Both the position numbers and the translations under genes were made by a program. The notes under the pieces were generated by a model that was not told where the DNA came from, ran no database searches, and worked only from the letters and a program-made list of their open reading frames with translations. Below are positions 1-48,100 of a stretch of 64,000 bases of DNA, in pieces; position 1 is the stretch's first letter; the number at the start of each line of letters is the position of its first letter. Location of the stretch: NCBI GenBank assembly GCA_964017185.1, contig OZ024874.1, positions 32,278,721 through 32,342,720 on the forward strand, in the 5' to 3' direction. Source of the stretch: Rugalucina vietnamica. Taxonomy: Eukaryota > Mollusca > Bivalvia > Lucinida > Lucinidae.

Positions 1-11
1 GATGTACTTAC

Positions 12-118
12 ATTCCTGATGGGCATTAGAGAAGTATGTGAGGTCATCTGGATGTATCAGATCATATCCCGATTTCACCCCCAGCTCACGATCAGAATAC
101 CCAAACATCATCTTACCC
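12..118 (-). CDS. AHR: AHR exon 8, start of PAS-B
   Basis: 107-nt exon, acceptor TTTTACAG, donor GTAAGT at 6-11. It reads [20 protein letters not shown] then [15 protein letters not shown] and one base. This is the N-terminal PAS-B strand/helix region (compare GRIVLGYTEAELCTRGSGYQ). The remaining PAS-B exons and the C-terminal region are off the left edge, so the ligand-binding character of this receptor cannot be judged here. Confidence 0.92.
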
Positions 119-3100: not shown

Positions 3101-6100
3101 TGAATTTTGAATATGAGACCATGTTTGTTCATTGCACAATTATATACACCAAGTGATCCTATAAAGCATCTCAAGGAGATCCAGAACATAAATTTAGCCT
3201 TCAATGGTGCATTTTTCATTTTTGGTAATTTTATAGGCCTTTTGGATCCTGTTCGAATCAGCTAAGATATTATTTTTCCCTTCAATCATCATGAAAGCCA
3301 ACAGTATAATGCATTTGCCAAATTTCCAAAAACATACATAACTGTCACTTTAAATTGAGATGATGAGAAAGGTTAGATTCTACAGATTTTGGCAAAAATT
3401 TACATTCCATTATGTCTGTTGAAAGATTTTTGGAAAACAACTTAGCTATATCTTCTAACCTGTTGTCCATAGAGATAGGTGAGAAGTCCATCTTGTGTTT
3501 AGACTTGAAGGTGAGCTCTCTAGAGGGTAGGTCTAACAATGACAGGGGTCCAAATGGACAGCAGGTGGCGAACAATGCTAGCTGGGGCTCGTCACTGCGG
3601 GGGTTCTGTCCATGCATCACTCTGATCCATCCACTGATCTCTAATGTCTGGTAAAATATCATAACATGGTTCTTGAGCATTTATAATGCAAATGGGACAG
3701 GCCAGCTTTTGAAAAAGTATTTAAAATGTTGTATGCAGTATGGAATAACAAATGGGCAGAAGGTCTGCCCTGTCGATGCAGTGTGAAAATTTTGAGACTT
3801 GAGATTAGGAGCTACAGGTACTAAGCAGGAGGATTAAAAAAGTCTCTTCTACATGAGCAGTCTGATTTTGATCCAGTATGCATGCTTTGGCCATTAAGTC
3901 CACAAATATAGAAACACCTGAACCTCTTTATAACACGCTTCTTTACAACATGGTGTGGATATAACACTGATCATTGCTGGACTCCAAATGGTCAAACTAT
4001 TTTTCCTATAAGTGTATGTCTTCACATTTTTTTCTCGATATGACACATTGGATTGCTAAGACGGAAATTGGCTTCGACCCTAACAATAATATTTTAAAGG
4101 GGTATATTGAAAAATGTCTTTCTTTTGTTTTTAAACCTTTAATTAAATTCTAGTGTCACTTTAAGCACAGTAATTCCCTCGATTCTGAAGGGTATTAAAT
4201 TATCATATAATGTATAAAAAGAAACATTTAGATAGAAATGACTCACTATAAATCCGGAGGTGTTGTCTAATAAACAGCGGAATCTTACAGTGAAAGACCT
4301 GTGTAGATAGTGGTAGTTTTCTGAAATAACAAAAAAATATTGAAATATTTACATTTTTAACATTTTTATGACTGAAGCAGTAAGCTTCATAAAATTATCC
4401 TGAATATGATATAACATGTTAGTACCGCTTCATAAAATTATCCTGAATATGATATAACTATGTTAGTACCGAGTAGGAAAACGTCTTAATACCATAAACT
4501 TAAGGCTTTATATGTTCTATTCTTACATACAATACAAATACAGCACTGTAAATTTATGGGAAACTGGAAAGTAAAATCTTTTTATAATGTACCAGTTATA
4601 ATATTGCTTCTCAGTTTTTGGCTAAATTGCTTAACTTTACTCTAAAAGTAATGAAAGAATGTTTCCTGATTAGAATTTTGTTACTGTACAATCAAGATTT
4701 TTGTTGTCATATTGTTTCCTTGTTTGTATATTTTATACTAATTTCAATCTGTCCACTTAAAACTGATTAAGGTCTTTTCTGAAAGGCATTTGCCATTTTT
4801 AGCTCACCTGAGCCGAAGGCTCACAAGGTGAGCTTATAGTATGGTAGTCGAGCCGTCGTCCGTCTGTCCATCCGTGCGTGCGTCCACACTTTCAATCTTG
4901 AATATCTCTGAGACTAGCTGGCCGATTGCAGTCAGCTTTTACATGAAGCAGCATTGGGGTGGGGGATTGCCTGCCATAGGTTTTTAAGCAGATCGTATCG
5001 GAACTCTGGTTTCCATAGCAACAGATAGCTCCCATTGAGTTATAATGGGGAAAATGTTGTGGCCACTCTAGCAACTTCATTTTTGATTGGATCTTCTTCA
5101 TTCTTGGGAATAACAAGAACAACCATAATATCTCGGATGAGTTCGAATTTCGGCCAGGTTCGACCTCAGATTGCGGATTTAGCTGCCCTTGAGCGTCTGG
5201 AAAAATCCCCATAGACTTATAATGGGAAAAATGTTGTGGCCACTCTAGCGCTTTTATTTTTCATTGGATCTTCTTCATTCTTGCAGGTAACAAGGACAAC
5301 TATAATATCTTGAATGGGTTCGAATTTCAGCCAGATCCGACATCTGACTGTGGAGTTAGCTGCCCTTGAGTGTTTGAAAAGTCATTATTTTGTGTTGTGG
5401 CCACTCTAGCGCCTTCAATTTTGATCGGATCTTTTTCATACTTGGAAGTAACAAGGATAGCTATAACATCTCGGATGAGTTTGAATTTCAGTCAGTTTCA
5501 ACCCTTGACTGCAGAGTTATCTGCCCTTGACTGTGTGAAAAATCAATATTTAGTGTTGTGGCCACTCTAGCGCCTTCATTTTTAATCGAATCTTCTTTAT
5601 TCTTGGAAGTAACAAGGACATCCATAACATCTCGAATGAGTTCAAATTTCGACCAGATCCGACCTCTGACTGCGGAGTTATCTGCCCTTGAGTGTTTGAA
5701 AAATCAATATTTTGTGTTGTGGCCACTCTAGCATCTTTGTTTTTCAGTGGATCTTCTTCATTCTTGCAGGTAACAAGGATAATTACAATATCTCGAATGA
5801 GTTCGAATTTCCACCAGATCCAACCTCTGACTGCGGAGTTATCTGCCCTTGAGTGTTTGAAAAATCAATATTTTGTGTTGTGGCCACTCTAGCATCTTTG
5901 TTTTTCAGTGATCTTCTTCATTCTTGCAGGTAACAAGAATAAGTACAATATCTTAGATGAGTTCGAATTTTGGCCAGATCCGACCTCTGACTGCGGAGTT
6001 AGCTGCCCTTTAGTGTTTGAAAAATCAATATTTTGTGTTGTGGCCAATCTAGCATCTTTGTTTTTCAGTGGATCTTTTTCTTCATTGTTGCAGGTAACAA

Positions 6101-9100
6101 GGATAACTACAATATTTCGGATGAGTTCGAATTTAGGTCAAATCCGACCTCTGACTGCGGAGTTAGCTGCCCTTTAGTGTTTGAAAAATCAATATTTTGT
6201 ACTGTGGTCACTCTAGCGCCTTCAATTTTGATTGGATCTTCTTCATTCTTGGAAGTAACAAGGATAACCATAACATTTTGGATGAGTTCGAATTTGAGCC
6301 AGATTCAACCCTGGACTGCGGAGTTAGCTGCCCTTGAATGTTTGAAAAATAAATTATATTTTGATCAGATCTTCAAAAAAAACAAAACAAAAAAAAAAAA
6401 AAAAAAAAAAAAAAAACACTTTGTCAAGTGACTGTACTTGTTGACTCTCAGAAAAAAAACAAAAAAAAAAAAAAAAAAACTTTTCCCAGTGACTGTACTT
6501 GTTGACTCTCAGGTGAGCGATCGTTGCCCTTGGGCTACTTGTTTTTCCTAAAATTTACCTGGCATCATAATTTCATGTAGAGTTAAGTTGGCTTTGTCTG
6601 AGGGCAGCATAGAATTCCAGGTTAACTGACGCTTGAATTCCTCTCTATCCTCCGAGTGGATCAGTTCCATCACACTCTGGTGTATAATGTCAGACTGAAA
6701 TATAATAGAATTCCAGGTTAACTGACGCTTGAACTCTTCTCTATCCTCCGAGTGGATCAACTCCATCACACTCTGGTGTATAATGTCAGACTGAAATATA
6801 ATAGAATTCCAGGTTAACTGACGCTTGAACTCTTCTCTATCCTCCGAGTGGATCAACTCCATCACACTCTGGTGTATAATGTCAGACTGAAATATAATAG
6901 AATTCCAGGTTAACTGACGCTTGAATTCCTCTCTATCCTCCGAGTGGATCAACTCCATCACACTCTGGTGTATAATGTCAGACTGAAATATAATAGAATT
7001 CCAGGTTAACTGACGCTTGAACTCTTCTCTATCCTCCGAGTGGATCAACTCCATCACACTCTGGTGTATAATGTCAGACTGAAATATAATAGAATTCCAG
7101 GTTAACTGACGCTTGAACTCTTCTCTATCCTCCGAGTGGATCAACTCCATCACACTCTGGTGTATAATGTCAGACTGAAATATAATAGAATTCCAGGTTA
7201 ACTGACGCTTGAACTCTTCTCTATCCTCCGAGTGGATCAACTCCATCACACTCTGGTGTATAATGTCAGACTGAAATATAATAGAATTCCAGGTTAACTG
7301 ACGCTTGAACTCTTCTCTATCCTCCGAGTGGATCAACTCCATCACACTCTGGTGTATAATGTCAGACTGAAATATAATAGAATTCCAGGTTAACTGACGC
7401 TTGAACTCTTCTCTATCCTCCGAGTGGATCAACTCCATCACACTCTGGTGTATAATGTCAGACTGAAATATAATAGAATTCCAGGTTAACTGACGCTTGA
7501 ACTCTTCTCTATCCTCCGAGTGGATCAACTCCATCACACTCTGGTGTATAATGTCAGACTGAAATATAATAGAATTCCAGGTTAACTGACGCTTGAACTC
7601 CTCTCTATCCTCCGAGTGGATCAACTCCATCACACTCTGGTGTATAATGTCAGACTGAAATATAATAGAATTCCAGGTTAACTGACGCTTGAACTCCTCT
7701 CTATCCTCCGAGTGGATCAACTCCATCACACTCTGGTGTATAATGTCAGACTGAAATATAATAGAATTCCAGGTTAACTGACGCTTGAACTCTTCTCTAT
7801 CCTCCGAGTGGATCAACTCCATCACACTCTGGTGTATAATGTCAGACTGAAATATAATAGAATTCCAGGTTAACTGACGCTTGAACTCCTCTCTATCCTC
7901 CGAGTGGATCAACTCCATCACACTCTGGTGTATAATGTCAGACTGAAATATAATAGAATTCCAGGTTAACTGACGCTTGAACTCTTCTCTATCCTCCGAG
8001 TGGATCAACTCCAGAAAATATAGGATACACCATCATAATAATAATTACTGAACACTAAGTGAGTATACATATAAGCTTGAGCACAATCATACATGTCATT
8101 TCCCCGTTGGTACTTTGTTGTAGAAAACAGGATCTTACACAAGTGGTCATTTTGCCTTTGGCAAGTTAAATAATTTCATATGAAATGGCCATGAAAGTAA
8201 GATTCTTTGTATAAAATGACCTTTAATATGGGATTGAATTGCCTTAAAAGTAGACAATTTTTCACTCAAAATTTGCATTGTTGTGTGTTGTCACATGACC
8301 TTACAAAGTCCTGCAAAAATTAAAACACATGATGTGGTCATATGATTTTTATTACATAGCATTGTCCACTGAATAACATTGATGTCATATGATTAAAGCT
8401 CATAACCAACAATGCAATCTTACAGCAGTGTTGTTTCTTTATGCCCGAGAAATGTCGGGTTGGGCTTTTTTATAATAGGTAAATTACACAAAGCCAATAA
8501 AGCATATAAAATTTCTCAGTTGGGAACGAAAGCATTAACTTGATTTTCATTTTGATTATCATTTTTCGGGCTTCAATGTTGAATACATGGTTGCAAAAAA
8601 ATTTGAATTAAGAAAAAGAAACAATACAGAATACAAGTGTGCTTGTAATTTTAGGCCTATTGCTTTTAGCTTCATTGCCGATTCACATTAAACCTAATAG
8701 AACGAAACTAATTCTGGATGAACAACGCTATTGATTAAACCCTACTCCTTCCTCTTAATTAAGGCGATTATGCCTATCAAGGAGGATTTGATCAAGACTC
8801 ACAATTTTATTGTTTTAAATAAAGTATAAAATCAATATTGAGCATCTTTTGTAATGCAATTAGCGGCATCAGTTCATGTTTACATCAAAAGAGCTACTTA
8901 GGAACAGAAGAGAGAAATGCAAAGCATTAGCAATACTAATATGCTTATCTACATCAAAAGGTTATGAAAGTGCAAATGAGATAACTAGTTTTAAAGCTGT
9001 AAGAGACTTTAATGCTTAGATGACATGATTTCATACTTATTAATGTCAGCTTTATGTTATAAAATTAAGATATTAAATACTGATTGGGAAAAGTATGTAT

Positions 9101-12100
9101 CATGTTAAAGGGCTTTGTTCAAAGTATAACTGAAAGGTCTGTTAATAGAAGAGCATTAGTGCATATGACATAGTAAAATGCTTTTTCACTTTTAGTTAAA
9201 ATGATGACAAATATATAAAGGTCTCCACCAAATGTTTGAAACAAATAAATCTGATGGTACTTTCATGTGAAAGTAGGTAACAGTGAAAAGTGACTATCAT
9301 ATCATAAACTAAAAACAGTTTCTATCATATCATAAACTGAAAACAGTTTCTATCATATCATAAACTAAAAACAGTTTCTATCATATCATAAACTGAAAAC
9401 AGTGTCTATCATATCATAAACTGAAAACAGTTTCAAACTTAAGATAACCGCAATTCAAAGTATTTGGACGACTCAAATTGCCTGTAAAGACCAGCCATGC
9501 ACACAAAACGGTGCAGATCTTTGATCAGACTAGTCCTCAGATAAGGCAGACTAAACTGGGTTGTTACTGTTAGTCAGTCCAAAATCATTATCATCATTTT
9601 CATTTTCTTATTTCACTCTTAACCATTTCTAGGTGGTGAGCAATATGAAGAATGGAACTCCTATGAATCTTAAAAGCTTTGTATTCTGTGCAAGGATAAG
9701 GTTACAGGTTAAAAGATGACAACTGGTGTTTAGTTTTACCCTAACGCTCAATTTTCCTTTTATTCTTTCCTTTAATGCTAGTTTCTTGTGTTTCGATTAG
9801 TGGTTTTAAAATGGAAGAGTGCCCGAAATGATAAGGGATATAGTAATAATATGGATAAACTTTGGAATCATTTCCCCCTTTATTGAAATAGGGAGTTCAG
9901 CAAGACCTAGTAATGGTTTAAATTCACTTTTTATTCAATTGATATGGGCCACATCAAGGGTAAACCTATCTTTTGGGTTACAGACCAGGTCTGATAAAAA
10001 CCAAGTTGTACAGCCACAGAAAACATCTAGAAGCTTTAGGTTCAATGTGAGGAGCAAAACAATAGTGCTGATCAGCTGTGTGATTACTATGTTACTGGTC
10101 TGTTCCTGTGTTTTGAAATAAACATATACAAAAGAGGTGGGCTCTTTCATAACTTGGCCATATGGTAACAATATTGACAGTTTCAAGAACACCCTATCAT
10201 TAAGGTTGATTAAACATGGTGTCCCTTAAAAAATGACTTGGGGCCCCATTATGATGTGGACATTTTTGAAGGAATATGTCTTTTGTCTTGTGTAATTTGA
10301 AGAACTTTAATACAGACTTCATATTTCTGTGTGTGGTATTAGAACATGTGCTATAAAGTTTTGACATGATGTCAGTGAATAAAAGTGGGTGTAATACAGA
10401 ATTAGTCAATTTAAAATGTTTTGTTATATGAAATACTTGAAAACACTGGTTGAAACGGATGGCATTGGCTATAAGTTGGTAAGGCACCTGAGGCCCACAA
10501 AGGTTGTCTTTGCCATTGGCCTAACCACACTGCATTACGAAAACTTGCCCATGCAATATCTGGAGATTTTTTCAGTCGTAAATAATAAAAATTTAGCTGG
10601 AAAAATTTTCATTGTATTTTCATTTTTGCTCAAAACATTGATTGTGGGTACATGTTAGAACCACCTTGTCGAGGGGGTTCTAATGAGTACCCACAATCTA
10701 TGTTTAGGACAAAAAATAAGAAAATTAGGTATACCCCTGCATATCCCAGTTTTACTATATAAAAGTGGGGTTTAAGGGGGTATTCATTGCACGGACATGT
10801 TTTCCTGATGGTTTTAAGGCATGCTTCCCAAAAACAGTTCTTTGTTTGTTTGTTGCTTTAAGTCCACAGTCAACAGCTAAGGGCATGTCAGAATGGTCAA
10901 TTATTGCAGCCACACTGTTCCAGAGTTCCTGGGTAAGCCTCCAGGAGGCAGGTTACCAGTATTAACAGTATATTTTTTTCACAACTAGGTGAGCAATTTT
11001 TTCAAAGGAAGAGGAAGCATTGTCATATAAATATTTTCATGACCAAATCTTCAAGAAAGAAATATGCTTAATGTTACAGATCAATCAAATCAATTGAACT
11101 AATGTGTTCTTTAGTTTTTGTATGCATACTAAAAGAAGGAAGCTTAAAACATTTTATTAAAGCAGCCCAAATAAATGAACATGTGAGATAACATATCATA
11201 CTAATGTACTAAAGATGATAGGATGATGGGATTTTATTTATTAAAATTCAATTTTCCTTCAAAGGTAGAAATGGCTAAGAAGCATCTAAAAATAAGAAAG
11301 GAAATGAATAATTAATTTCCAATAGTCTCTGGTTTTGTTACTGAGGAAAAAATAATACAGATGAAATTAGCCTAAGTACCCAGAATCAACTGTTCAATCC
11401 ATTGCAATGAAACAGCTAGGACATGACCAAAAGAAATAAGATGACCACTGACATCAAAGCCAAAATATTCATGATAAAGCCAAGAGAATCTCTGAATATT
11501 CAGACCAACTGAGTATCAAAGTTTGCGAGTTTCTTTGCTTGTTGCATATAGAGCTACTTTTGTTATTTTCTTCTTTTCTTTAATATTAACCCACTATTTA
11601 CCCACTTAAAGCTCATGTCACACACTCACGAGTTGGACCTACGAGTTAAGCTCCGCCCACTTTTTTGGTGAACCCGTAGAGAACTCGCCCTATGTCGGTG
11701 GTTGTCGTACACAAGTCTTCCCATCTCATAGCAACTCGTAGCATGTCATGGAAAGGCTACGAGAATTTTAAACCGTTAACAATTCTCGTAGCAACTCACG
11801 TCTAAAAGTGGGCGGGGCATGGGCGGAGCATAACTCGTACTGATCTCGTAGCTTATCGTACAGAACTCGTAGTAATGTCGTACGATGTCGTGCGTTCTCG
11901 GCGCCTTGTCAAACTCGGCGAGTTGCCTACGAGATACCTACGAGTTGCTACGACATTGAAGGCGTCTTCTCACGAGTTCCTACGACATCTCACGTGTTTA
12001 CTACGACATGCCTACGAGTATCCGCGAGTTCCCAAGACTTTTATCGTAGAGATGTCGTGTAGAACTCGTAGGGTGTTATAACTCGTGGCAACTCACACGA

Positions 12101-15100
12101 CAAGCGGCGAGTAATGATTTGGGCTAACTCATAGCTTCAACTCATGAGTGTGTGACAGCTTTTAAACTTTTTCAACATAACTTGTGGCAACTCGCGTGAC
12201 AAGCAGCGACTTATAACTTGTACCAACTCGTAGCATGTCGGGGCTTCAACTCGTGAGTGTGTGACAGGCCCTTAACATGCACTCACATGTGTAATGAAAG
12301 AGAAAAGAGAAAATTTTAAACATAACTTTGCCTGATCCATCCTGAATCATCTGCAGCACATGCCTGTAATGAGGGAGTATTTACCTGATGAAAGCCAAGG
12401 TATTGTTCTACCGTTCTAGCAGCATAGAACACCTCACCATCACACGTCACCACAAACAAGAAACCATACAATGCCTGAAAACAAAATAATGATACAACAC
12501 TTATTCTTGCATAGATATCTATGCTCACAGTTGCTTGAAGCCGTTTTCAATTGGCCGAAAGCTGTGTTCAAACAGCAAAACCCATGTTCAAATCATGAAA
12601 TTCATGCGCCGTTTGAACATGGGTTTTGGCCCACATCATTGGTCAATGCGACATGACGTCACTGTGTTCCATAGAAACAAAATGGCCAACATTGAAGAAG
12701 CTCCGCGGTTTTCGGTAAGTTTTGACGTTGCTTATGTTATTTTTAAGAAATTTTAAGTGAATTAGTGTGAAAATGCAAGAATAGCGATCAACCATGTTTA
12801 GTTTCAGTGTTCAAACATTCGATAGATCACTCAGAAGGGGTTTGAACATGCAACCTATGGCCTTGAACACCTTCCTCGTGATCCATCGAATGTTTGAACA
12901 CTGAAAACCAATGGTTGATCCCTTTAATGATAAGTCAACTTGCTGGTACTGAATGGCAATTTTCACCAAAGGATAATTTATATTTGATGCCTCTATTTAT
13001 AAAATCCATGACTGTGATAAATTTATTCTAAGTGAGACTGCAACAACAAGGGTCATTCATCATCACGGTAATGTTTTCTATGAAGGATGTTGCCATGTAG
13101 TGTAATTTTACAAATTATTCCAATTATTTAAACATACACCAGTTTTTTATCATAAACATGTCAGGGACACTACGGGGGATGGCTAATAGTGTTGTCATCT
13201 GCCTGTACAACCAAGCATAGAGTTACACAAAATGTAAATGATGGTTTGCTTGTAGAAACGCAAAACTGATTGAATTCAAGTGTTCATACATTGAATATTT
13301 TGAGGATGAAATTGTGTCAATGAAAATAGTTCAAGCTCCCCCACACCCAACATAATTTATTACAGACAATGTTACAGCGGCAGTGGCTCTGTTGTGATTT
13401 GTTCTGTTTCTTTCTTTGATGTCATTTCAATAAGTTTTAATTTTCTGTGAACAAATCATGACTGGTCCAATTTTCTGAACAGACCTCTTTTGGGAAATAG
13501 CAGCTCCTTTACTTTACCATATGTTTGTATTGTTTCTTGTTAATTTATTGCTTTTGTTATTTTCCCTTTGTGTTTGAAGGACAAGTCGTGGTGTATGATC
13601 ATACAAAGAGGATCTTACATGGGTGGTCGTTTCATATGAAATTTATTACACAAGCTTCGGCAAGTTTAATCAATTTCATATGAAATGACCACGAGTGTAA
13701 GATTTGTTTTATCATATGACTTTTAAAAAAGGATTTTATCACCGTCAAACTGGATACATTTTCAATGAAAATTTATATTGTTGTTATGGATGTCATAAAT
13801 GACGTTACATATTAATACACATGTGGTCATAACACTTTTTATTACATGACGTTATCCACTGGAAAACAGCGACGACCTATGATAAACCCCTTTATAACAT
13901 GGTCCGTTACAGCAATGTTTTGAATACAGCATGGACCATTCTAGACATTGTAGACTAACTTTGCAATACATTTTCCTCTTGTTATATCATGACTTTGATA
14001 GCTGTCTTGGACCCAACTGTAGTGTTATGAAGAGTTTGTGGTGTACCAGTTACTCGCATGTCTAACTATCTACCTCAACATACCTGTAGAATACTCTCCC
14101 CCTCTGAGAACTGTGGATCAGGCAGGAGGTGACTCCTGGTCATGTAATGGCTGTCCAGGTGATAACGATCCGGCAACACAGCTGAAATAGATATACGAGC
14201 CTGCGCATGACAAAACCAACAATTTGGGTTCCGACCAGGTCTGACACAAACCGGGCTGTACAGTCACAGAAGATGGTTAGAGGCTGGAAATTTTTAATTT
14301 AGAAAGTAGTGGAATTGTACTATCTGTGTAGCTAAAACAAAGGCGCTGATCAGCTTCGCAGTTACTGCGAAGCTGATCTGCGCCTTTGTCTTTGCCCAAG
14401 CATTTTGTTGGTTTTCTTATGCAGTGGCTCAATTACAGTAATGTAAAGTGCTTGTTATTCAAAGAGACATTCTTGGCTTATCCCCACATTTGAACATTTG
14501 TTACCATTTGACTACAGTTGCCATTAAATCTTACTCATGATATAAGCATAATGAACGGCAGAACTCTATATATTTTAATGTTACAAGCCAAATGGCTGAA
14601 TGTAGTCAAGTTTCAGACATTTTATAAATTCACTTGTTGGTAAGGGTACACATAGTTTTAATGGTGATACAGCAATGGAACTTGTACAGAATTATATTTT
14701 GTTCTTGTCAGTCATGTAGAAAGGGTTAACTTGCATGTAGACCACAAGAAAAAATACCAGTAGACAATGCACCACGAGAACTGGTAGCCTCGATGGCAAC
14801 CAACACACAACCAATAACTGCCCGTAACCAACAAATACTGAACAAAAAGAGTAATGTTTTAAAAAATCTAATTTGCAATATTCTTCTATTTTATCTTGTA
14901 TTCTCAAAGTATAATGCCCTTATATATACATCCAAAATTTAGCCAAGTCAGCATTTAGTTTTAAGTTATGAGAATGTTTTCTGGATGCAATGCATTAAAA
15001 AATACAAAAGTTGGCAATATTTATAGGAGATACACATATTATTTCACATTTATAGTTTTATCCCCAGAATTTCTTCTTATTGATTTTTGCAAACTTCAAT

Positions 15101-18100
15101 AAAATACTGTCATAATTCCTACACTGGGGAATTGTCTCTTAGTTGAGATATCATTGTTTTTAAGCAACTGGTCTAATTTGAATGAAATTACGATAACAAG
15201 TTCTGTTGAGTAACACTGACATAATTCTAATAATATTGTCAAAAATAAATTCTAGCTCAGGGTAAGACACTTTCATCCTGACACATTCATATAAATACAA
15301 GAAAAAATGAAAAGGCCATATGTAAGAACAGATATAATTCCAGGACACAGAAAGGAGCAGAGGAATGAATGCAAGAGAGTAAAATGTAAACAGATACATA
15401 TTTGAATTTGTCTTTCCTGGACTCAGTCATCAAACCTTGGCAATTATAAGGTGGGTTTAAAAAACCTGTAACCTGCAGTGGAGCTATATTATGAGCTGGT
15501 AATTGCACAGTAAATAAAACCTGGAGTGTAGTAAGGAATATTAACAATTGCAAATATTGTTTTTGTTGCTGTCGTTGTTTTTCAACAAAATTTCCTAATT
15601 TTGTTCAGGATGTTTTTACTGCAATTGTGTACATTTCTCATATATTACAATGATTAACTGTCATTTTTTCATCTTTTAAATGCACACTAAAATAGTAAAA
15701 CATAAGAATAATTTGAGCCGCATCATGAGAAAACTGGATTTTTGCCTATGCGAAAACAAAGGCGCAGATCAGCCTTGTGAAGCTGATCAGCGCCTTTGTT
15801 TTCGCTACACGGATAGTACAATCCCTCTTCTTCTTAGATCCAAACTTTCAAGGTTCTAGCTTTCTTCTTCAAGGGTACAGACTGGTTGATGCCGAACCTG
15901 GTAGGAAACCCGGAAGACTGGTTTTCTCACCACACAGCTCATTAATTTTTAGTAATCTGCCTTTTTCTTCTTATTAAAGGTTTAATATGCATTGTGTACC
16001 TGAGGAAGGAAATGAATGTGCTTTATATTATTAATCTTATCTGATTTTCCTGCTAAATGTTCAATAACTTGCTTTGTTAGAGTTAATTCTACAGATGGTT
16101 AAAACATTTTATACCTGGATTAAATTCTGCAAATTCTGTCACATTATTAATTGATGGGGAATTAATGCTTCCATGGCTAAAACACTTTCAGAAAAGCGAA
16201 AGAACTGAGCTAAGAAAACATTAGGTTGCCGAGATATAATGCTTGTAGTCGTCCATCAAAATGGCTCATCAACTATTTTTAGGTTGAAATTATTAAAACT
16301 GAATGAGAAATAATTTAGTTCTGACCAGAAGATAAAAGCTGCTAGACCGCTTCTAGTTATTGGTACTACATTTAATCATTGCCAGAAACCATAGACAAAC
16401 ATTAATATGTGATGGAAAAACCTGCAGCTAGGTGGTTTGCACTGGATGAGGGGACAACAAGTACTGGTTCAGAATGTGACCACCAGCCTAGCACTACAGG
16501 GGGCAGCAAGTACTGGTTCAGTATGTGACCACCAGCCTAGCATTACAAGGGACAGCAAGTACTGGTCCAGTATGTGACCACCAGCCTAGCACTACAGGGG
16601 ACAGCAAGTACTGGTTCGGTATGTGACCACCAGCCTAGCACTACAGGCGACAGCAAGTACTGGTTCAGAATGTGATCACCAGCCTAGCACTAGCCGTTGT
16701 CAACTGGCTTCATTACAGGGGACAGCAAGTACTGGTCCAGAATGTGACCACCAGCCTAGCACTACAGGGGGCAGCAAGTACTGGTTCAGTATGTGACCAC
16801 CAGCCTAGCACTACAGGGGACAGCAAGTACTGGTTCAGTATGTGACCACCAGCCTAGCACTACAGGCGACAGCAAGTACTGGTTCAGTATGTGATCACCA
16901 GCCTAGCATTACAGGGGACAGCAAGTACTGGTCCAGAATGTGACCACCAGCCTAGCACTACAGGGGGCAGCAAGTACTGGTTCAGTATGTGACCACCAGC
17001 CTAGCACTACAGGGGGCAGCAAGTACTGGTCCAGAATGTGACCACCAGCCTAGCACTAGCCTCTGTCAACTGGCTTCATTACAGGGGACAGCAAGTACTG
17101 GTCCAGAATGTGACCACCAGCCTAGCACTAGCCTCTGTCAACTGGCTTCATTACAGGGGACAGCAAGTACCAGCCTAGCACTACAGGGGACAACAAGTAC
17201 TGGTCCAGAATGTGACCACCAGCCTAGCACTACAGGGGGCAGCAAGTACTGGTTTAGTATGTGACCACCAGCCTAGCACTACAGGGGGCAGCAAGTACTG
17301 GTCCAGAATGTGACAACCAGCCTAGCACTAGCCTCTGTCAACTGGCTTCATTACAGGGGACAGCAAGTACTGGTCCAGAATGTGACCACCAGCCTAGCAC
17401 TAGCCTCTGTCAACTGGCTTCATTACAGGGGACAGCAAGTACCAGCCTAGCACTACAGGGGACAGCAAGTACTGGTTCAGTATGTGACCACCAGCCTAGC
17501 ACTACAGGGGACAGCAAGTACTGGTTCAGAATGAGACCATCAATCCAGCACTAGCCTCTGTCAACTGGCTTCATTACAGGGGACAGCAAGTACTGGTTCA
17601 GAATGTGACCACCAGCCTAGCACTACAGGGGACAGCAAGTACTGGTTCAGTATGTGACCACCAGCCTAGCACTACAGGGGACAGCAAGTACTGGTTCAGT
17701 ATGTGACCACCAGCCTAGCACTACAGGGGACAGCAAGTACTGGTTCAGAATGTGATCACCAGCCTAGCGCTAGCCTCTGTCAACTGGCTTCATTACAGGG
17801 GACAGCAAGTATTGGTTCAGAATGTGACCACCAGCCTAGCACTGCAGGGGGCAGCAAGTACTGGTTCAGAATGTGATCACCAGCCTAGCACTAGCCTCTG
17901 TCAACTATCTTCATTACAAGGGACAGCAAGTATTGGTCCAGAATGTGACCACCAGCCTAGCACTAGCCTCTGTCAACTGGCTTCATTACAGAAGACAGCA
18001 AGTACTGGTTCAGAATGTGACCACCTTCCTAGCACTAGCCTCTGTCAACTAGCTTCATTACAGGGGACAGCGAGTACCAGCCTAGCACTACAGGGGACAG

Positions 18101-21100
18101 CAAGTACTGGTTCAGTATGTGACCACCAGCCTAGCACTACAGGGGACAGCAAGTACTGGTTCAGAATGTGACCACCAGCCTAGCACTAGCCTCTGTCAAC
18201 TGGCTTCATTACAGGGGACAGCAAGTATTGGTTCAGTATGTGACCACCAGCCTAGCATTACAGGGGACAGCAAGTACTGGTCCAGTATGTGACCATCAGC
18301 CTAGCACTACAGGGGACAGCAAGTACTGGTCCAGTATGTGACCACCAGCCTAGCACTACAGGGGACAGCAAGTACTGGTTCAGTATGTGACCACCAGCCT
18401 AGCATTACAGGGGACAGCAAGTACTGGTCCAGTATGTGACCACCAGCCTAGCACTACAGGGGACAGCAAGTACTGGTTCAGTATGTGACCACCAGCCTAG
18501 CACTACAGGGGACAGCAAGTACTGGTCCAGTATGTGACCACCAGCCTAGCACTACAGGGGACAGCAAGTACTGGTCCAGTATGTGACCACCAGCCTAGCA
18601 CTAGCCTCTGTCAACTGGCTTCATTACAGGGGACAGCAAGTACTGGTCCAGAATGTGACCACCAGTTTAGCAATAGCCGTTGTCAACTGGCTTCATTACA
18701 GGGGACAGCAAGTACTGGTTCAGAATGTGACCACCAGCCTAGCACAACAGGGGACAGCAAGTACTGGTTCAGTATGTGACCACCAGCCTAGCACTACAGG
18801 GGACAGCAAGTACTGGTTCAGAATGTGATCACCAGCCTAGCATTACAGGGGACAGCAAGTACTGGTTTAGAATGTGACCACCAGCTTAGCAATAGCCGTT
18901 GTCAACTGGCTTCATTACAGGGGACAGCAAGTACTGGCTCAGAATGTGACCACCAGCTTAGCAATAGCCATTGTCAACTGGCTTTATTACAGGGGACAGC
19001 AAGTATTGGTTCAGTATGTGACCACCAGCCTAGCAATAGCTTCTGTCAACTGTCTTCATTACTAGGATCAACTATGATATGACAGGACAATGAATGAACT
19101 TCAGCTAGATCTTCAAAATACTATGCTTAATAAGAGCTTAATAGAGGATTTGCTCTGGCAAGAATATCATTGGAATTAATTAGGAGCAAGGAATCTGTCA
19201 AATTTTATGTCCTCTTAATATCATACATCTTGACAATAATCTGCAATCAGGCTGGCAGAAAAATGTTTTTGATTGGTGCTTAACTGCTTGGTAAATCCCC
19301 TATATTTGGACTAGTAATTAAGTAAATGGATCTTTTCTGTTTCACTGATGAGTATAAAAAAGTCATTTTTCCCTGAATTTTAGTGTAGCAGACAGTTAGG
19401 CCTTAACAGCACCTCTATACACCCACACAGTGTGGTACCAAAGTGATAGTTCGTCTCTCACTAATGAGAAAGTACCAAAGTAGAATTAGGACGTAGTGTC
19501 TGATCAACCCTTTGACTGGAAAGTTGACTATCGGTTATGCAAAATTTGACAACAACTGAGCAAGCAAAAGACAGGCTTATTGGACAAAAGTAAAAGACAG
19601 CAAATGTCTTAAAAAAAAACAACAAAAAAACAACAACAACTGAAATGGTAGATCCAGGCAGTGTCACAATAAAAACTGTGATCTATAATGTGGTGAATGT
19701 GGGAAACCATTATGATCTAACAAGGATCAAACCAAAAGCTATTCAAATTGATGAAAAACATTAAAAATATTCATGATTTTATGGTACCGTAAATCCGGAA
19801 ATGTTCGCGAGAATTTAATTTTCGCTAGTATTTGCGAATTAGTTGCCTCGCGAAAGCAAAGTTCTCGCTAATAAAGAATTACAATAGACTGCACGAGTAC
19901 TCATTCGCGAATTCAAAGACTCGCTAATAATTTGGAAAAAGAAAATTCTCGAAATAAAAGTCAGGCGAAAATTTCCGGACTTACAGTAGTATAAGAGTCA
20001 ATTTGATCTATCTCTGTAAAAGAATAAAAGAGAAAAAATGACAACATTAATATGTGTATATGTAAAGGGGATGCTCCTTTTTCTTTCAGATAGTCTCCCC
20101 TGCTTGAATAAGAAAAAAATTATATTTATTTATTTTTAGTTTTTTTATTTATTTATTTATTAATCATTTTTATTTAATTATTTATTTTTTATTTATTCAT
20201 TTATCTATTTATTCATTTATTTTGTATTGCCACCATGAATGTATTTTCTGCATTGTCATATTTGCTCGTTTGTAACTGATGTGTTTAACTGAGCTTTCAA
20301 TAAATGTTATGTTTTCTGTTATGTTATGCTATGTCATGGTAGAATATTTACATTTTTCTAAAACCTCCTTAGATGAACCATTAGATGTTCATCTGTTTTC
20401 ATACTTCCATGAACTACATCGTGTCACGCGACGTCACATGACGTCAAACTTGACGTCAAAATACAATGCTTTTGCCAATCTGATTGGACGTTGTAAACGT
20501 CAACGCCGTTCCGCTGTTTGAATACACACTGTGTGTAAATTATCTATTTGCTTGTAAATGTGATCGCCTTGTTTCAACAAGCGATAGAGTGAAATGAATA
20601 TAAATATAAGCAATGAGTTTAATTTTTCTGATGTTCGGGGTTCATTCACTTTGCACGCGACCCACTGCGGTTCATAGCTCCATGAACACCAGAAAAATGA
20701 AATTCATTTCTTAAATAAATTTTGCACTGTTTTTCAGAAACTGCATTCACTCAATGAATGCCTAGTGATTATGCTAAAACTTCATCAATGAACAGTACCA
20801 TTGTTGATAGACACTTTAACCTTATTCTAATATCAACACTTTAACCTTATTCTAATATCACAAATGATGGAACATTTCTATAGTTTTGATCATGCGATCT
20901 GAGAGGAGGTGTTACCCCACATGCAATATGGCAATGAACTACTTGTTTTTAGACAATTGTTTGTATTACAGTCTGGCACGTATGAATTACAAGTCTGTAA
21001 GAAGTCATGAAAAATAAAGGAATAAAACTAGCTAACTAATATTCTGTCAGAAAAAAAAGATATGACTGGGGTGAAATTATGGACACTAAAATATAAGGAT

Positions 21101-27100: not shown

Positions 27101-30100
27101 CGAAAAAATCAACAACTCAGGGGTGTACTTAAAAATCTTCTGTAATTCAAGTGCCGATGCTCATAGAGAGCTAAGAATAGTATCATATTATTGCTAATAT
27201 ACTGTACTCATGATGTATTGGTTTCTTATAGACAGATCTGATTTCTGCTACCTAGCATATTAATCGAAATGTTGCAAATTGGAGAAAAAATAGCAAACAA
27301 CTAAGGTTGTATACTCACAGAACTGATTGTAACTCAACTTCCGATGACCATTGAAAGCTGAAAATAGCGTCAAACAGTATACCATTATAAAATGGGCTAG
27401 TAAAAACTTTCCTGACGTCTACTACATAGAATATTAAATAAAAACCTTATAAATTGGGGAAAAATCACAAAAAACCTGAGGAGGTATACTTACAAAATCG
27501 CTTAAAACTCAAGTGCCAATGGCGCTAGAGGGCTCAGAAAAGTAGCAAATGATTGCTAATGTAATGTTCTAATGATATATTGGCTTGAATAAACATATCT
27601 GACCTCTAATACCTAGTATATGAAAAAATACCCTTACGGAATTGATAAAAATAACGGAAAAATAAGGGATGTACTTATAAAGATCTCCTGTCACTCAGTT
27701 GCTGATAGTCACAGAGAGCTGCGAATAGTATCATATTATTGCTAATATACTGTACTAATGATGTATTGGTTGGTATTGACATATCTGACCTCTGCTACCT
27801 TGCATATGAATCGAAATCTTGCTGATTTGAGAAAAACAACCGAAAAACCGAGGGGGTTATACTTACAAAACAGCTTTTAACTAAACTTCCGATGACCATT
27901 TGAGAAAAATCATGAAAAACCTCAGAAGGTATACTTACAAAATCGCTTGTAACTAGACTGCTAATGATCCTAGAGAGCTCAGAACAGTAGCAAATGATTG
28001 TTTTTGCCATTGGCTTGGATAAACATATCTGACTTCTAATACATAGTATATGAATAAAAACTTCAAAAAAATGGAGAAGATATCACAAAAAAATAAGGAG
28101 ATCATCTTAAAAAATCTCCTGTACAACATGTGTAAATGGTCCTAGAGAGCTATGAAGTATCAAATAATTGTTTATGCCATGCTCCCTACCATATGAATCA
28201 AAACCTGATAAAAGAAAGGGGAAGATCGTGAACAAACTAAGGGGGGTATACTTACCAAATCGCTTTTAACTCAACTGCTAATGAACAAAGAGAGCAGAGA
28301 ATAGAGCCAAATTATTGCTAAACAGTGTGCTAGTGATAAAATGGGATAGTTTAATCTTATCTGACGCCAACTACCACAATATAAATACAAACCTTATAAA
28401 GTGGAGAAAAATCGTGAAAAACTACAGAGGTGTACTTCTTAAACCACTTGTTACTCAATTGCTTTTTGTCATAGAAAGTTAAGATAAGTATAAAATGATT
28501 GGTAATGCAATGTACTAAAGATATGATAGCTTCTATAAATCAACTTGACTTCTACCTAGTATATAAATCAAAATCTTATAAATTGGAGGAAAATCACGAA
28601 AATAGTTACAAAATCTCTTGTATATCAATTGCTAATAATCCTAAAGAGTTGACAATATGATTGTTTAGGCAATGCACTAATGATATACTGTACTGGCAGG
28701 TAAAACTTGTCTATCATTGGTAGCCTAGAATATAAGTATATAAAAACCTTTATCTTATATACTGCATATATTGGAGTCAAAACAACTAAAACTAAGGGAG
28801 TATGCTTCATGAATATTCATGATTATGTAAATAAGATGATTTGCAAATGATATAAATGAATGTAAGGCATTTACTCAAACTCTAGTTTGAGACCAATTTT
28901 GATTCAGGGGTAGCCAAGATATGCCGATTAATAATTTCGTCGGTACATGTCCAATTTTATGAATTTCAATATGCATAACTGACATGATTGATTGATTGAT
29001 TGATTTATTAATTTATTATAGTGACAAGTACATATATGAATATAACACATACAAAGGTGTAAATACATATAAATAATACCCAGCCTAACAAGGCTTATCA
29101 GTCACTAGTTGTAAATATGTATGATAGAAATGTTTGTAGATCAGTGATCATATTTTAACACGGAAAGGAAAATCCACATGAATCTGGAAAATATATAAAA
29201 TTTATCAGGTCCTTAAATATCCAGATAACGCATCATGATATGCGCAGTTTCAGCGCATCACATATGAAGTGTGCAGTCTTTAAAGTTAAAGCCTTTGAAG
29301 AAAATATATTTAAAAGTTTATGATCGTCATTTAAGTTTGGTGGACACACACCACTAATCGCTCGTGTAAAGTCCTGTCTTAAAACATGATATTTGGTACA
29401 GTGAAATAGAAAATGTTTTTCACTTTCGACAGTTCCCATCGAACACTGTTTACAGAGACGCTCATTTCGTGGGATATGAAGATATCGACCGAGTTCTATT
29501 TCGATCGGAAGGCACCCTGCTCTCAACTGGACTAACGCCGATCGAAGTTTTTTACCCATCATCAGCGTCACGTATTCTTCAGCACCATAGTCATGTTTGA
29601 TAATTTTATAGTTTTCAAGTTTATTTTGCGATTCTATATCGTTTCTCCATTTTTGTTTATATTTTAGCATAAGTTTATTTTTAGCATCCTCTATCGGTAT
29701 GAGAGCACTTTGCCCGTCGGTAAGGGCTCTAGTATATTTATCCCCCAAATCAATAGTTTTTAGAATGTTTTTAGCATAACTGCAATACCTTGACATTTGA
29801 CCTCATGTTTCTTAGACATAACTAGCAAGTTAGAACTTGTAGCAATGCTTGGTATTATTTATTATCCATTTGTACTTGTTTCCATTCATTTTTAAACACT
29901 GTTTGACAACGAAAAGAATACAAAATATTTAAATGTATCATGTTTACTGCACATTTGCACTTACTTGACCTTTGTCCTAGCCGTGACCTTGAAACCAAAA
30001 CTGACCTTTGGCATCCACCATTAACTTGTTTCTCGTGACATAGGAAATAATTCTAGCCTTCATGCCAAGCATTAACAAAAATGTCATGAAAATGAATTCA

Positions 30101-42100: not shown

Positions 42101-45100
42101 AATGGGTTTCAAACATCTGGGTTTAAAATCATTTTATCACCTGCAGTGACTTTTAAATGTCCAAGTTTGTTCTTTCTTTTTTAAGGATTAAGTTTTCAAA
42201 AAGATTGTCATTAAAAGCAGAGGTAACAAATTAATGAAAATCGGTTGTACTGAATGTTTTGGAAACATTTCTGAACTTATTTGATAAAACTTACCAAATA
42301 AGACAAAGTTTGAAGGACTTTGATTAGAAAAAAAGTTTAAGAAGAGAAAGAAACAAAATGCTGACAGATGGATGGACAGACAAACCTCAAACACAAACTT
42401 TTGAACAGCGGGGATAACATAATATCCCATGCTTAAATCAACCACGGTAAGAAATGTTTTATCTGACCTGGTACAGACACAAACAAGACTGTCATTTCAT
42501 TCCAATAACTGCTTTTAAAGTTGAATACATGTATTACGTTTTACTCACCATGAAAGTAACTCTTTGTTCGAAGGTAGCTTACTCCTAGTCGTAGTATAGA
42601 GAGTTTATCAAGCTTTGATATGACACTCTGTTCAAACGGCAGCAGACTTGCTAGGTGATCCAGCTCCGAGTTCAATCTCTCTCTATGTCGCTTGCTGGGA
42701 TTGCTCTTGGGAGGATCTTTAGTTGGGGTTTTCACACTGCAAATAGAGAGAACAAGAATTGCTTAATTACATATATGTGTGCCCGAGCTCAATCAAAAAT
42801 TAGAAATAGTGCAAAAACATGTCCGTGTAATATATACCTCCTTATACCGCACTCGGGGAGGCGGTTCTAACAAGTACCCACAATCTATATTTTGGATCAA
42901 AAATAAGAAGAATAGGTAAACCCCTGTAAACCCCTGTTTTACTATATAAAGTGGGGTATGGGGGGTATACATTTCACGGACATGTTTTCAATATGTGAAG
43001 CCCAGATAGGCTTTCTCCCAGCTTTCTTCTTTTTATAATTCATCTGTGGCTACAAGATCTTCACACCATGTGGCTAGATCATCCTCACATCACAACACTG
43101 GTATCATAGCAAACCTTTGAAAATCTATCAAACATTATTTGTATAACAGTTGAAGACCTCTGAACAGCACTTGGTATGAGACAATTAATTGTCAATTACT
43201 TCTTGAAATGATGAGTGCAGCACTTGAAAATTCAAGCACCACTTCAGCCAATAGCTGCTGTTTTAAGGTGACAATAAGGATACTTGAACCAATCAAAGAC
43301 CACCACACAGATGATGACAGAAAACTTTGTATCATCTTGAAATTTGCAGATGCAGTATGGGAAAGGATACCAAGTACAGCAAAATACCGCTTTTAAATAG
43401 TTCAGTGTACATATATTTTCTATAGACTTAAGTCCAATTCGCATGCGCCAAAAATACACGCGGGTAAATATACTCCTGTGTGCAAATTTTACTCGGGGTA
43501 AGCAAATGGCGCATGCGAACGCAAATACACACCGGAGTATATTTACATATGGGTAAATTTACTCCTGGGTCTGACCAGATGCAATTTTTATTTTTACAAA
43601 TACACACATGTAAATTTACTATTTTGTCCCATGCGAACGCAAAGTAAAATTTACCCATGAGTATTTTTATTTCAAGTCAATATTCTGCTTTTAGATAACA
43701 AAGTTTCACATTTTTTGTTCATAACTAATTATGACAGTTGCTGAAACTGTGGACATTGTTGCTAAATAAGAGTTTATTGCCATTCATCACATTTTAGATC
43801 AGATGGAGTGCAAACAGCCACACTATTTCTTCATCATTCTTGGTGAGATTCTTGGGGCATTTTAACAAGGGAACTGTATAAGTGCTAAGGTTATGCCTGA
43901 CCATTACATGATTCTTCTCAGCTGCAAAACTTGAAGCAGCCTCTTCTTGTTTTGAAAATACAGAAAACTTAAATGAACAGGTTTTAATTCAGAAATGATA
44001 AATTTACATACAAAATACTCCTGGTAATAAAGTCCATGCGAACACAATTTAAATTTACTCACAGGTTGCTTTGCACACCGGAGTATATTTACACACATGT
44101 ATTTTTTGCGCATGCGAATTGGACTTAAGAAAGCTCACAAGCAGCGGGAGTGGTAGAAAGAGATGGTTCAATCTGAGAGATTTGTGCTTGAAACAAAGCA
44201 CTGTTTGTGTCCAAATTAGTATGTAAAGAGAGTTTCATGAATCTTTTCTCAACAAATGAACCCATCCATATTATTTCCACAAAATAAGCATATCTTACAA
44301 AGCTGCAATCATATCATTCTTTGATTCCTTCAAAAGTTATAAATAATATCATTTTTATTGGGCATAGTGGCAAAACATAAAATATTCTGCAATAAATTTT
44401 ATAAATAATGGAATTTAACATGTCTGTATAAAAGAGTATGTAGTGCATTATTAAATGTTTCTGGTAGCTAAAAAACTAAATACATGCAATAAATTCTGTA
44501 TTCTGATATAAAACAAATATTCTTCATTCATACATGTATCAAATATTCTGCATCTGTATGTACATGTATCAAATATTATGCATCCCTATATGTGTATCAA
44601 ATATTTTATTTTCCTTCTACATGTATCAAATATTCTGCATCCCTAATGTATCAAATGTTCTGCATCTCAAATATTCCGCATCCATACACATACTAAATAT
44701 TCTGCATTCCTACATGTATTAAATATTCTACAGTGCTCTTTCATGTATCATATATCCTGCAATACTCGGGTGTATATATTTTGTGCTGTAGAGTTTTGGG
44801 TTATCAGCTTTTTTCATAGTTTCTGCTTTTCTAAATGTATCATAAGCATTTGAAAACCTGCCTTCCTCAATCAAATGAAATGAATCACTTTTGCCATCGT
44901 TATATGTGGGATTTACCATACATATCAGGACAATGACTATACTTTTTCTTAAACCAAAGTCATCTAGACCACAAAAATATTACACTGTAACAAATGATTC
45001 AGGATTTTTAACAGAACAGTTTTGCCACAGTACAGCGCGACCTCGGGTGAATCAGTACTCCAACACCCAGCCACAGGCTAACAACAGTCAAGAGAAAGCT

Positions 45101-48100
45101 GGTCTATGATTATGTGGTCATAAATTGGGATCTGATCCTTATAATCAGAGAACATGACTTTGTAGGAGGAGTAGCATGTTTGTCAACACTCATGGGTCAA
45201 AATACAACAAACCAAGTGCATGCTGTATTGTAAAGCTGTAATAAAAATGGCTTTGAGGATTTTTTGTTATGTATACTAAACTGATCTAAACTGTAGCAAT
45301 ATTTACTGTTGCTTTCATTTATTTATCTATGTATTTATCTATTTATGCATCTATTTTTTTTTTCTATAACAGTATTTTTATCCAAGAATACTATACAGAA
45401 TGAGGCCAGACATAGGAATTGTGATTAAAGACGGTAGCAAAAGCAAAGCTACACGGCCTTGGCTGATAGTGTACCATGTCTGAAAAAAAATTAACTACAC
45501 CATATGCACAAGACATATGAAAATTTGTCCTATGAAAAAAAAATCAATTCAAAATGAATGTCTTCTCTAGCTGTTGTCTGTAGCTTAAATTTTGTTTGAG
45601 AAATCTTGTCCCTCCACTGTGAGCCAAAGTCGTGAGACTTTAATCAATTCCTTCATCATCATTTGCATGTATAAGCCGAGCCTGAAAGTCAGCGTCTATC
45701 TCTTACTTTGTCAGGCTGAAAATGGTTGGTCAGCATGCGATATTTGCATCTATCAATAACTTCCTCCGACTGCCGCTCTAAAAGGAATAGCGACATAAAA
45801 TGATAGATCACCGGCACAATTGTTCCCGCGTTATGACTAGGTTTTAGGTTCCTAATATATTGCTATGGTATGATATCAAGTTTTGATAAAATGTTTTCTA
45901 TAAAATGTTGCTCATTTTGTCATCTTTTAAGAAAAGTTAAAATGTTTCCATTTATCTGAAATACAATCAGTGAGAGAAGAAATTGTACCAATCCCAGTAA
46001 AAAGCATTGACAGGCTTGTGAAAGAAATATTATTCAGCATTTCCATTCTGTTATGACTTCAGCCAACCTTGTTAGCTGCAGGTGCAGGACATTTCGTCTA
46101 AAACCATTTTGTCTAAATGCCATTTCATCTAAAGGACATTTCGTCTAAACGCCATTTGGTCTAAAGGACATTTGGTCTAAAGGCCATTTCATCTAATGGA
46201 CAATTCGTCTAAAAAATCAAGCAGGTGCAACATTTGGTCTAAAAAAAGTTAAGAAAATTTAAGAATTTTTAGATTGAATGTCGAACCCTACTTTAAATCA
46301 ATATTAATCAATGTGGTAGGTCTATCCTTGTTTATCATTTCTTTTTACACATACATTGCAAATCATTTTTTTTTTTTCTTTTTGTCTTTTTAGTTATTTA
46401 AAACATACATTGTAGAAACATATTCTAAATAATGTTTTTATTATTTGACCTTGCACAATATGCACAGAATTGCACAATATTGCTCATACTATCTGCCTTT
46501 GAGTGTTAAGAATTTCATTATACCATTTTATTTATTTATTTATTTATTTATTTTTTATTCAGTTAACGTCCCTTTCAAGATTATTTCAGCTCATATGAGA
46601 CGGGCCAATCAGTAGGTGGGGCGAAAACGTGAGAACCCTGAGAAAAACAACCTGACACATCCGCAAGCAGAACTTGGCTTGTCTCACATGTGGCCAGAGC
46701 AAGGCTCGAACCCACACCAGACACAGCGATGAGATGATCGAATGGGTAAGTGCGATAATGAAATATCAGCGCTCTTAACCACTCTGCCTATACCATTTTA
46801 AATATGAAATACAATGATGGAGTGTCTACTGGATTGGCTACAATTTGAGATATAAAATATCATTAAATCATTAAAATATCCAATAAAATGTTCAAAAATA
46901 TTTTCCTCATCATCTATGTTTTAGACGAGTATTAGACAAATTATAGATGTTTTTAGAATTTTGGACGTTTTTAGACATTTTTAGACGAAATTTAGACGAA
47001 ATGTCCTATTGGACAAAATGTCTATTAGATGAAATGACATTTAGACGAAATGTCCTTTAGACGAAATTTCCTTTAGACAAAATGTCTTTTAGACAAAATG
47101 TACTTTAGACCTTTGCAAATGTCCTTTACACCAAATGTCCTTTAGACGAAATGGTTTTAGACAAAAAATGTCATGGATCCGTTAGCTGCAGTCTCAAACA
47201 CATTACTGTAAAGACACTGATCAGTCTGCATATTATATTAAGTGTATCCAAACCTTCATGGAAAATCTGCTTTTGACAATTTACAAAGATTCAGACTGAA
47301 TTAGGTAACATTTTGGGAAAGAGATGCTCACTCAGATTATTTTCTTTGTAGCTTGGTTTTCATTACGAAACATGTCCGTGTAATGTTTACCCCCTTCGAA
47401 ACATGTCCGTGTAATGTTTACCCCCTTGAACCCCACTTTTATATAGCAAAACTGAGATAAGCAGGAGTACACCTATTTTTCTTATTTTTGCTCCAAAACA
47501 TAGACTGTGGGTACTCGTTAAAACTGCCTCATCGAGGCCGTTCCTACGTGTACCCACAATCTATGTTTTGAGCAAAAATAATAAAAATATGAAAAAAAAA
47601 AAAAATCTACTGAAAATTTTCAACTTCAGAAAAATCTGTATATTGCATGGGCATGTTTTTGTAATGTTAGGACAAGTTTTGATACTGATTGCACTGGTTC
47701 CTGGTGATTGCTAACTTTAATTGAAACATGTACTGGCTTGTTAGGAACCTGTCTGGTCAGAAACTCCAAGCACAAGGTAGTGCTGCTCATAGAGTTAAAT
47801 TCCAGACTTCTACAGAACTAAACCACCATCATAATCTTTGAATTTCAAATAAATTACAAGTTACGACCTGGCCATTCTTCCAACTACCATTTCCAGTTAT
47901 GTACATGAAACCCAATCCCCATTCCAATATCCTAGACAGACATTGCGAGATAATTGAAAGTGTATTAATAACAAAAGCCGGATGATAAAACGGTCTTAAC
48001 GCCACAAGAAAACTTCTGTGGTTGCCGTAAAATGCTGGTAGTGAGGACCAAGGGAGCAATATGTTCTCACCATTTCTAGCTTGGACGTCAATGAACGGGG

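Follow-up and report, generated by a model that had tools for sequence, protein, structure and literature searches.

The AHR gene and its exons

The DNA considered here (the window) is a stretch of 64,000 nucleotides from the bivalve Rugalucina vietnamica, namely positions 32278721-32342720 of a 72-Mb contig in an assembly of 1.09 Gb and 47 contigs, and it contains no N. A gene for AHR, a receptor that senses pollutants, crosses the window on the minus strand, the strand of all AHR features given below. Its exons were placed by tblastn with pieces of vertebrate AHR, in combination with splice phases. In this way exon 2 (bHLH; 42549..42736), exon 4 (12385..12474), exon 6 (4247..4320), and exon 7 (3460..3647) were located. 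Exon 3 (14084..14181), the linker from bHLH to PAS-A that ends in EGESILQ, was assigned from its phase and this short motif, without a similarity match. Exon 5 proper (6559..6694; 136 nt), exon 8, and the PAS-B exon were placed by tblastn and phases as well; the exon-proximal acceptor of exon 5 lies at 6694, and its donor (CAG/GTAAAT) has 6558 as the first intron base. PAS-B starts with exon 8 (12..118; 107 nt), the first donor of which has position 11 as its first intron base, and the gene model adds a PAS-B exon beyond the window (-957 to -1099, counting 0). Up to the first acceptor, intron 4 is 4.4 kb long; the length of intron 5 is 2.2 kb.

When joined, exons 2-8 and the PAS-B exon form a single open frame of 341 codons. 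This located model runs from exon 2 to the PAS-B exon; the start and the C-terminal exons lie outside the located set. The bHLH, PAS-A, and PAS-B exons follow one another in order with compatible phases, and among solved structures the PAS-A piece, the one piece for which similarity was ranked, best matches AHR (75.8 bits), followed by AHRR (61.8) and HIF-3alpha (40.7). Both the identification of the gene as AHR and the phase 0 end of exon 4 at 12385, as given in the initial annotation, are retained; exon 4 is the splice partner of the array described below. A search of the animal's own genome for the spliced exon 4-exon 5 junction (at most three mismatches) returned no match, hence no processed copy that would reveal the acceptor used, and Rfam at gathering scores gave no match in the window.

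Two arrays on exon edges

Along the 5' edge of exon 5 runs a tandem array (6609..8013, minus strand) with a period of 96 bp and 14.6 copies (99% matches, 0% indels). Its score of 2747 is the highest of the 61 Tandem Repeats Finder rows, and the program returned the very bounds with which the array had first been described as abutting exon 5. Each unit consists of 28 exon-5 codons (84 nt) and the 12 nt ATTATATTTCAG, which end in CAG and, as had been read before, translate as IIFQ. The sequence TCTGACATTATACACC starts 14 times on the minus strand, every 96 nt between 7942 and 6694, marking 13 complete units (6695..7942) and the copy in exon 5; the earlier maximum of thirteen extra 32-residue blocks agrees with these 13 complete units beside the exon. 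The first unit is truncated to a 71-nt stump (7943..8013) that has lost its own acceptor and keeps a branch-point-like TTAAC and a pyrimidine tract serving acceptor 7942. All 14 occurrences of the 30-base unit junction in the 1.09-Gb assembly (0 mismatches) lie at this array. Variation is confined to four sites (unit positions 30, 31, 54, and 57), all of them synonymous and without any indel; synonymous transitions amount to 27/84 in the unit. Positions 30 and 31 distinguish exon 5 proper from every unit, and positions 54 and 57 segregate among the units, with their variants also present in exon 5 proper.

Exon 5 is thereby preceded by 14 in-frame predicted 3' splice sites with identical cores (CAG/TCTGAC). 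Depending on the acceptor chosen, exon 5 would be 136 + 96n nt long (n = 0 to 13), and in the rebuilt gene each of the 14 choices leaves the frame open through PAS-B without a single stop, giving products of 341 to 757 aa. The claim that the array keeps the frame is hence borne out, and the prior for one unit length preserving the frame is about one in three. A minus-strand open frame of 494 codons (8032 to 6548) was rejected as independent evidence: the units being near-identical, it shows only that one 32-codon unit is open.

Splice scores were derived from textbook frequencies, not from a trained model, and the acceptors of exon 3 and the PAS-B exon fall outside the scored set. On this scale the array acceptor reaches a weak-to-moderate 4.37 (the four examined being alike), and five other AHR acceptors range from 4.24 to 9.8. 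The best donor inside the unit scores 2.57, compared with 6.01-9.99 for the true donors of exons 2, 4, 5, 6, and 7. As the unit lacks a credible donor, only acceptor choice varies, and a role of the copies as cassette exons is unlikely. According to the variant table, all 14 acceptors are preceded by the same 39 nt, and the four examined acceptors show one differing base within 60 nt upstream. A branch-point-like TTAAC (6717..6721, minus strand) precedes exon 5, its A lying at a distance of 24 nt. It recurs at this distance at the other three array acceptors examined and, as the variant table implies, at all 14; before each acceptor it falls within the exonic portion of the previous copy, and no AG intervenes between TTAAC and the acceptor. 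This is mildly telling, as [CT]TAAC lies 18-40 nt upstream of 130/3383 AGs outside the array (3.8%). The loose form of the motif was discarded as evidence because it precedes 1518 of these 3383 AGs at the same distance; four of the five other AHR acceptors lack the motif at 15-50 nt upstream even in this loose form. RNA folding of two units was no better than that of shuffles (z -0.78).

At the protein level, the translated array matches Pfam PAS with an E of 1.3e-35, a value summed over the repeats with no single stretch passing alone, and the best match covers profile positions 38-65 of 113. Pfam matches other than PAS were set aside as repeated weak matches. In terms of the PAS fold, the repeated 28 residues presumably belong to the helical bundle, and extra blocks could be looped out of this bundle or break the domain. 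A single-sequence fold of five copies (172 aa) shows helices in every unit, at a mean pLDDT of 48.1 that offers no usable confidence. The emphasis that the initial annotation placed on ARNT dimerization is misplaced: the AHR PAS-A dimer interface is described as lying on an extra N-terminal A' helix and on the beta-sheets (PMC4905635), and the repeated 28 residues presumably lie elsewhere.

A second array follows exon 8 on the minus strand, with a 50-bp unit that consists of 44 nt of the exon-8 end and the donor core GTAAGT. Positions 1..56 of the window form its beginning; in the joined region it extends from 56 to -640 and comprises 14.0 copies (97%). It offers 14 donors, all scoring 7.79 and spaced 50 nt apart save for one step of 46, one unit being 4 nt shorter. 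Only one of the 14 keeps PAS-B: from donor 1 the reading continues to ...FSNAHQELIKTGSSGLIAYRW with PAS-B intact, donor 2 causes a frameshift, and each of donors 3 to 14 leads to a stop inside the array. Variation is found at two sites of a single Asp codon, which becomes Gly or Tyr, along with the 4-nt deletion, and none of it is synonymous. This array is an internal control, being located in the same gene with the same number of sites but with a unit that is not a multiple of three. If a receptor with PAS-B is made, splicing must choose the exon-proximal donor over 13 equal ones. Since 13 of the 14 donors cannot give PAS-B, the layout of an exon-edge array is no evidence of its use, and the argument 'in frame, therefore used' loses most of its force at exon 5.

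Arrays with a period of at least 30, at least 10 copies, and at least 95% identity were taken as a strict class, a cut set after the exon-5 array had been seen. Two such arrays, each on an AHR exon edge, are present in 134 kb (the window and 70 kb of flank), and none in 200 kb sampled at 20 other sites of the same contig. Other many-copy arrays in the 134 kb are 69-82% alike (e.g., 49 bp x 14.0 at 82% and 44 bp x 21.9 at 79%) and lie away from the exon edges, and tandem repeats of period 10 or more make up 11% of the 200-kb sample (20 stretches, one contig). The 134 kb hold no extra copies of the other located AHR exons; the few short matches from the copy scan, two with exon 3 as the query and one with a flank of exon 5, were spurious. 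By post hoc arithmetic, with 16 exon edges located in the 134 kb, a random seed would span an edge in approximately 1.1% (96-bp) or 0.6% (50-bp) of cases. The pairing of both strict arrays with AHR exon edges exceeds chance. Both units hold a splice-site core, which suggests a filter, as an exon-edge expansion without this core would lengthen the exon.

Proposed origin and use of the repeated splice sites

Our preferred explanation, which we consider probable, is that of two exon-edge minisatellites carrying splice sites, of which the exon-proximal ones are used and the rest tolerated, with a leaky ladder at exon 5. Each minisatellite would have arisen when a piece spanning an exon boundary, splice-site core included, was duplicated in tandem. 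The exon-5 unit would thus carry 12 nt of acceptor and take its branch point from exon sequence, and the exon-8 unit would carry the 6-nt donor GTAAGT. Because every unit brings its own splice site, expansion would be splice-neutral. The spliceosome would then pair the nearest sites across the intact exon, i.e., acceptor 6694 with donor 6558 (136 nt) and acceptor 118 with donor 11 (107 nt), yielding a normal AHR. At exon 8 the other donors destroy PAS-B, and the extra donors would either stay silent or give transcripts that are degraded. At exon 5, where the alternatives are all in frame, leaky use would be tolerated and would give a ladder of AHR forms with extra 32-residue PAS-A blocks. Most likely, AHR is made by splicing at the exon-proximal site of each of the two exons, and leaky in-frame isoforms form a ladder at exon 5.

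A trace of how the exon-5 array arose may be seen at its ends. A short CTAT is common to exon 5 (AATTCTAT, where the unit ends) and the flank (ATCCTAT, just above 8013), the flank reading ...GTATCCTATATTTTC and the stump starting with TGGAGTTGATCC. The shared CTAT fits birth of the array at microhomology, and tandem duplication at this CTAT, followed by a deletion that removed the first acceptor, could account for both array ends. The 12 nt had been taken for the end of the exon's own intron. This remains a sound interpretation, but the native intron-4/exon-5 junction is gone (the stump has no acceptor) and is not visible; the flank above 8013 is not a letter-for-letter match to the 12 nt of the unit. 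As the native end of intron 4 no longer adjoins, even acceptor 6694 has exon-derived sequence upstream.

Which acceptor should prevail can be approached through intron length. Long flanking introns favor the sites closest across the exon, as reported for annotated alternative sites in the available part of Carranza et al. 2022 (PMC9225289). Under this rule, and with an intron 4 of 4.4 kb and an intron 5 of 2.2 kb, we expect acceptor 6694 to dominate, with some leak. The same part of that paper (PMC9225289) gives an overall upstream preference for 3' sites, which exon definition merely reduces, and upstream exon-5 acceptors may be used more than our explanation assumes. Other points also run counter to it: the array acceptor is weak (4.37 on the matrix used), the branch-point motif means little when four of five other acceptors do without it, and variation that is all synonymous at exon 5 would instead fit regular translation.

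This last point leads to the readings in which the blocks are coding. The array might be a functional coding expansion, with a many-block (32-residue) PAS-A AHR as a main product: 14/14 acceptors are in frame with no stop, and exon-5 variants are 4/4 synonymous without an indel, versus 3/3 disruptive ones at exon 8 (one in 35 by Fisher arithmetic). The contrast is a hint, at the level of sequence, that the exon-5 blocks are translated. However, two of the four synonymous sites split the exon proper from the units and are explained by the exon's own constraint, and counting just the two sites segregating among units, the arithmetic becomes one in ten. Moreover, an exon of 1384 nt would be unusual with flanking introns of 4.4 and 2.2 kb, and the exon-8 array indicates that such arrays arise without coding use, so that we regard this expansion as distinctly unlikely. 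A length-variable AHR, in which the 14 acceptors are used stochastically or by tissue to add 0-13 helical 32-residue blocks, would draw on the same contrast: selection keeping the blocks coding would leave synonymous variants at exon 5 and disruptive ones at exon 8. We consider this version improbable.

On the other hand, the exon-5 array could be fully inert, 6694 being the sole acceptor and the remainder intron. Such a reading agrees with the exon-8 array, which is laid out alike and has to be bypassed if a full receptor is to be made, and with the 136-nt exon being the expected choice under exon definition (PMC9225289, in its available part). Yet near-identical sequence lies both upstream and downstream of the 14 acceptors, the silencing of 13 would need position alone, and the units show neither indels nor amino-acid changes, all of which leaves complete inertness rather doubtful. 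Very unlikely, finally, is an assembly artefact with copies absent from the animal. It could be suspected from both arrays happening to hold 14 splice sites, but the units differ by patterned variants, the stump and the 4-nt deletion are irregular, the window is free of N, and an assembly of 1.09 Gb in 47 contigs, with a 72-Mb contig here, suggests long-read data.

Known systems and further repeats

In intron gain by tandem genomic duplication, the duplicated exon-edge sequence supplies new splice sites; there, one duplication makes a new intron, whereas here none is made and each array multiplies one kind of site. The VNTRs or repeats in ABCA7 and MUC1 are, like the present arrays, in-gene minisatellites discussed with splicing effects, but they are not known to span the exon boundary or to carry one splice site per unit. 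Mutually exclusive tandem exons, in which every copy is complete with acceptor and donor, do not describe exon 5 either, since its unit has an acceptor but lacks a credible donor.

The nearest precedent is the splice ladder of human polyubiquitin UBC, where RT-PCR revealed a ladder of repeat units that was described as stochastic (Duan et al. 2024, PMC10809524; this and the following statements concern the available part of that paper). As at exon 5, the UBC unit is a multiple of three with a splice site, and in UBC an in-frame isoform ladder results. Repeats carrying splice sites are argued there to be less harmful, since they can be spliced out (PMC10809524), and tolerance through the splicing out of extra units is likewise what we propose here. 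UBC differs in that its sites can serve as donor or acceptor and its unit is a whole domain, whereas the exon-5 unit holds an acceptor without a credible donor and the exon-8 unit a donor. Unlike in UBC, as far as that part describes it, the units here are exon pieces with a few intron bases in a transcription factor with a folded domain. Dual-specific AGGT sites of the UBC type are absent, the acceptor being CAG/TCTGAC and the exon-5 unit containing no credible donor. A UBC-type ladder would have a functional splice site in every unit and a preserved frame; exon 5 has a predicted site per unit and an open frame, and the frame is not kept at exon 8. Within molluscs, tandem duplication of an exon likewise goes together with alternative splicing at exon 10 of oyster AOX (Liu and Guo 2017, PMC5589949). 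As far as the available part of that paper goes, it concerns one extra, diverged, alternatively chosen exon, compared with the 14-copy, near-identical exon-edge array described here. The statement that no AHR with such an array has been described agrees with the literature listed for AHR and duplicated mollusc exons, a narrow check.

With 14 in-frame acceptors 96 nt apart and 14 donors 50 nt apart, the locus is a natural ruler for spliceosome choice, and counts of junction reads would measure the balance among exon definition, intron definition, and transcription order. The arrays also suggest a route by which exon-edge tandem expansions survive: with a splice site within the unit, length becomes irrelevant. 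Translation of the exon-5 ladder would mean that the PAS domain of a conserved sensor and transcription factor varies in length. On the length-variable reading of AHR, which we hold improbable, exon-edge minisatellites with splice sites might more broadly offer array-rich genomes a general and tolerated way of building repeat proteins.

Several other repeats occur in the window. Intron 5 contains a 43-bp duplication (4384-4471, approximately 64 nt upstream of exon 6) in which TACTAAC followed by TTATATCATATTCAG appears twice; here, on a smaller scale, AHR again has an acceptor-like element in repeated form. A 161-bp repeat (5232-6354; seven copies at 86%) starts approximately 200 nt downstream of the exon-5 donor; between the two lie a 61-bp duplication and A-rich runs (6375-6512), and the stretch 5232-8013 is mostly tandem repeat. 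Intron 4 holds a 28-bp repeat (9294-9434; five copies at 95%). In intron 2, a complex array of 49-, 72-, and larger units (16449-19062) includes several open frames of approximately 100 codons on the plus strand and has a GC content of 0.43-0.48, compared with approximately 0.35 around it. A 189-codon open frame with a cysteine/histidine motif on the minus strand (29233-29802), without a match in Pfam at E 0.1, resembles the end of a retrotransposon polymerase. Finally, two 16-bp arrays (46086-46213 and 46991-47166) share a similar motif of the TTTAGACGAAATGTCC type in opposite orientation, approximately 0.8 kb apart.
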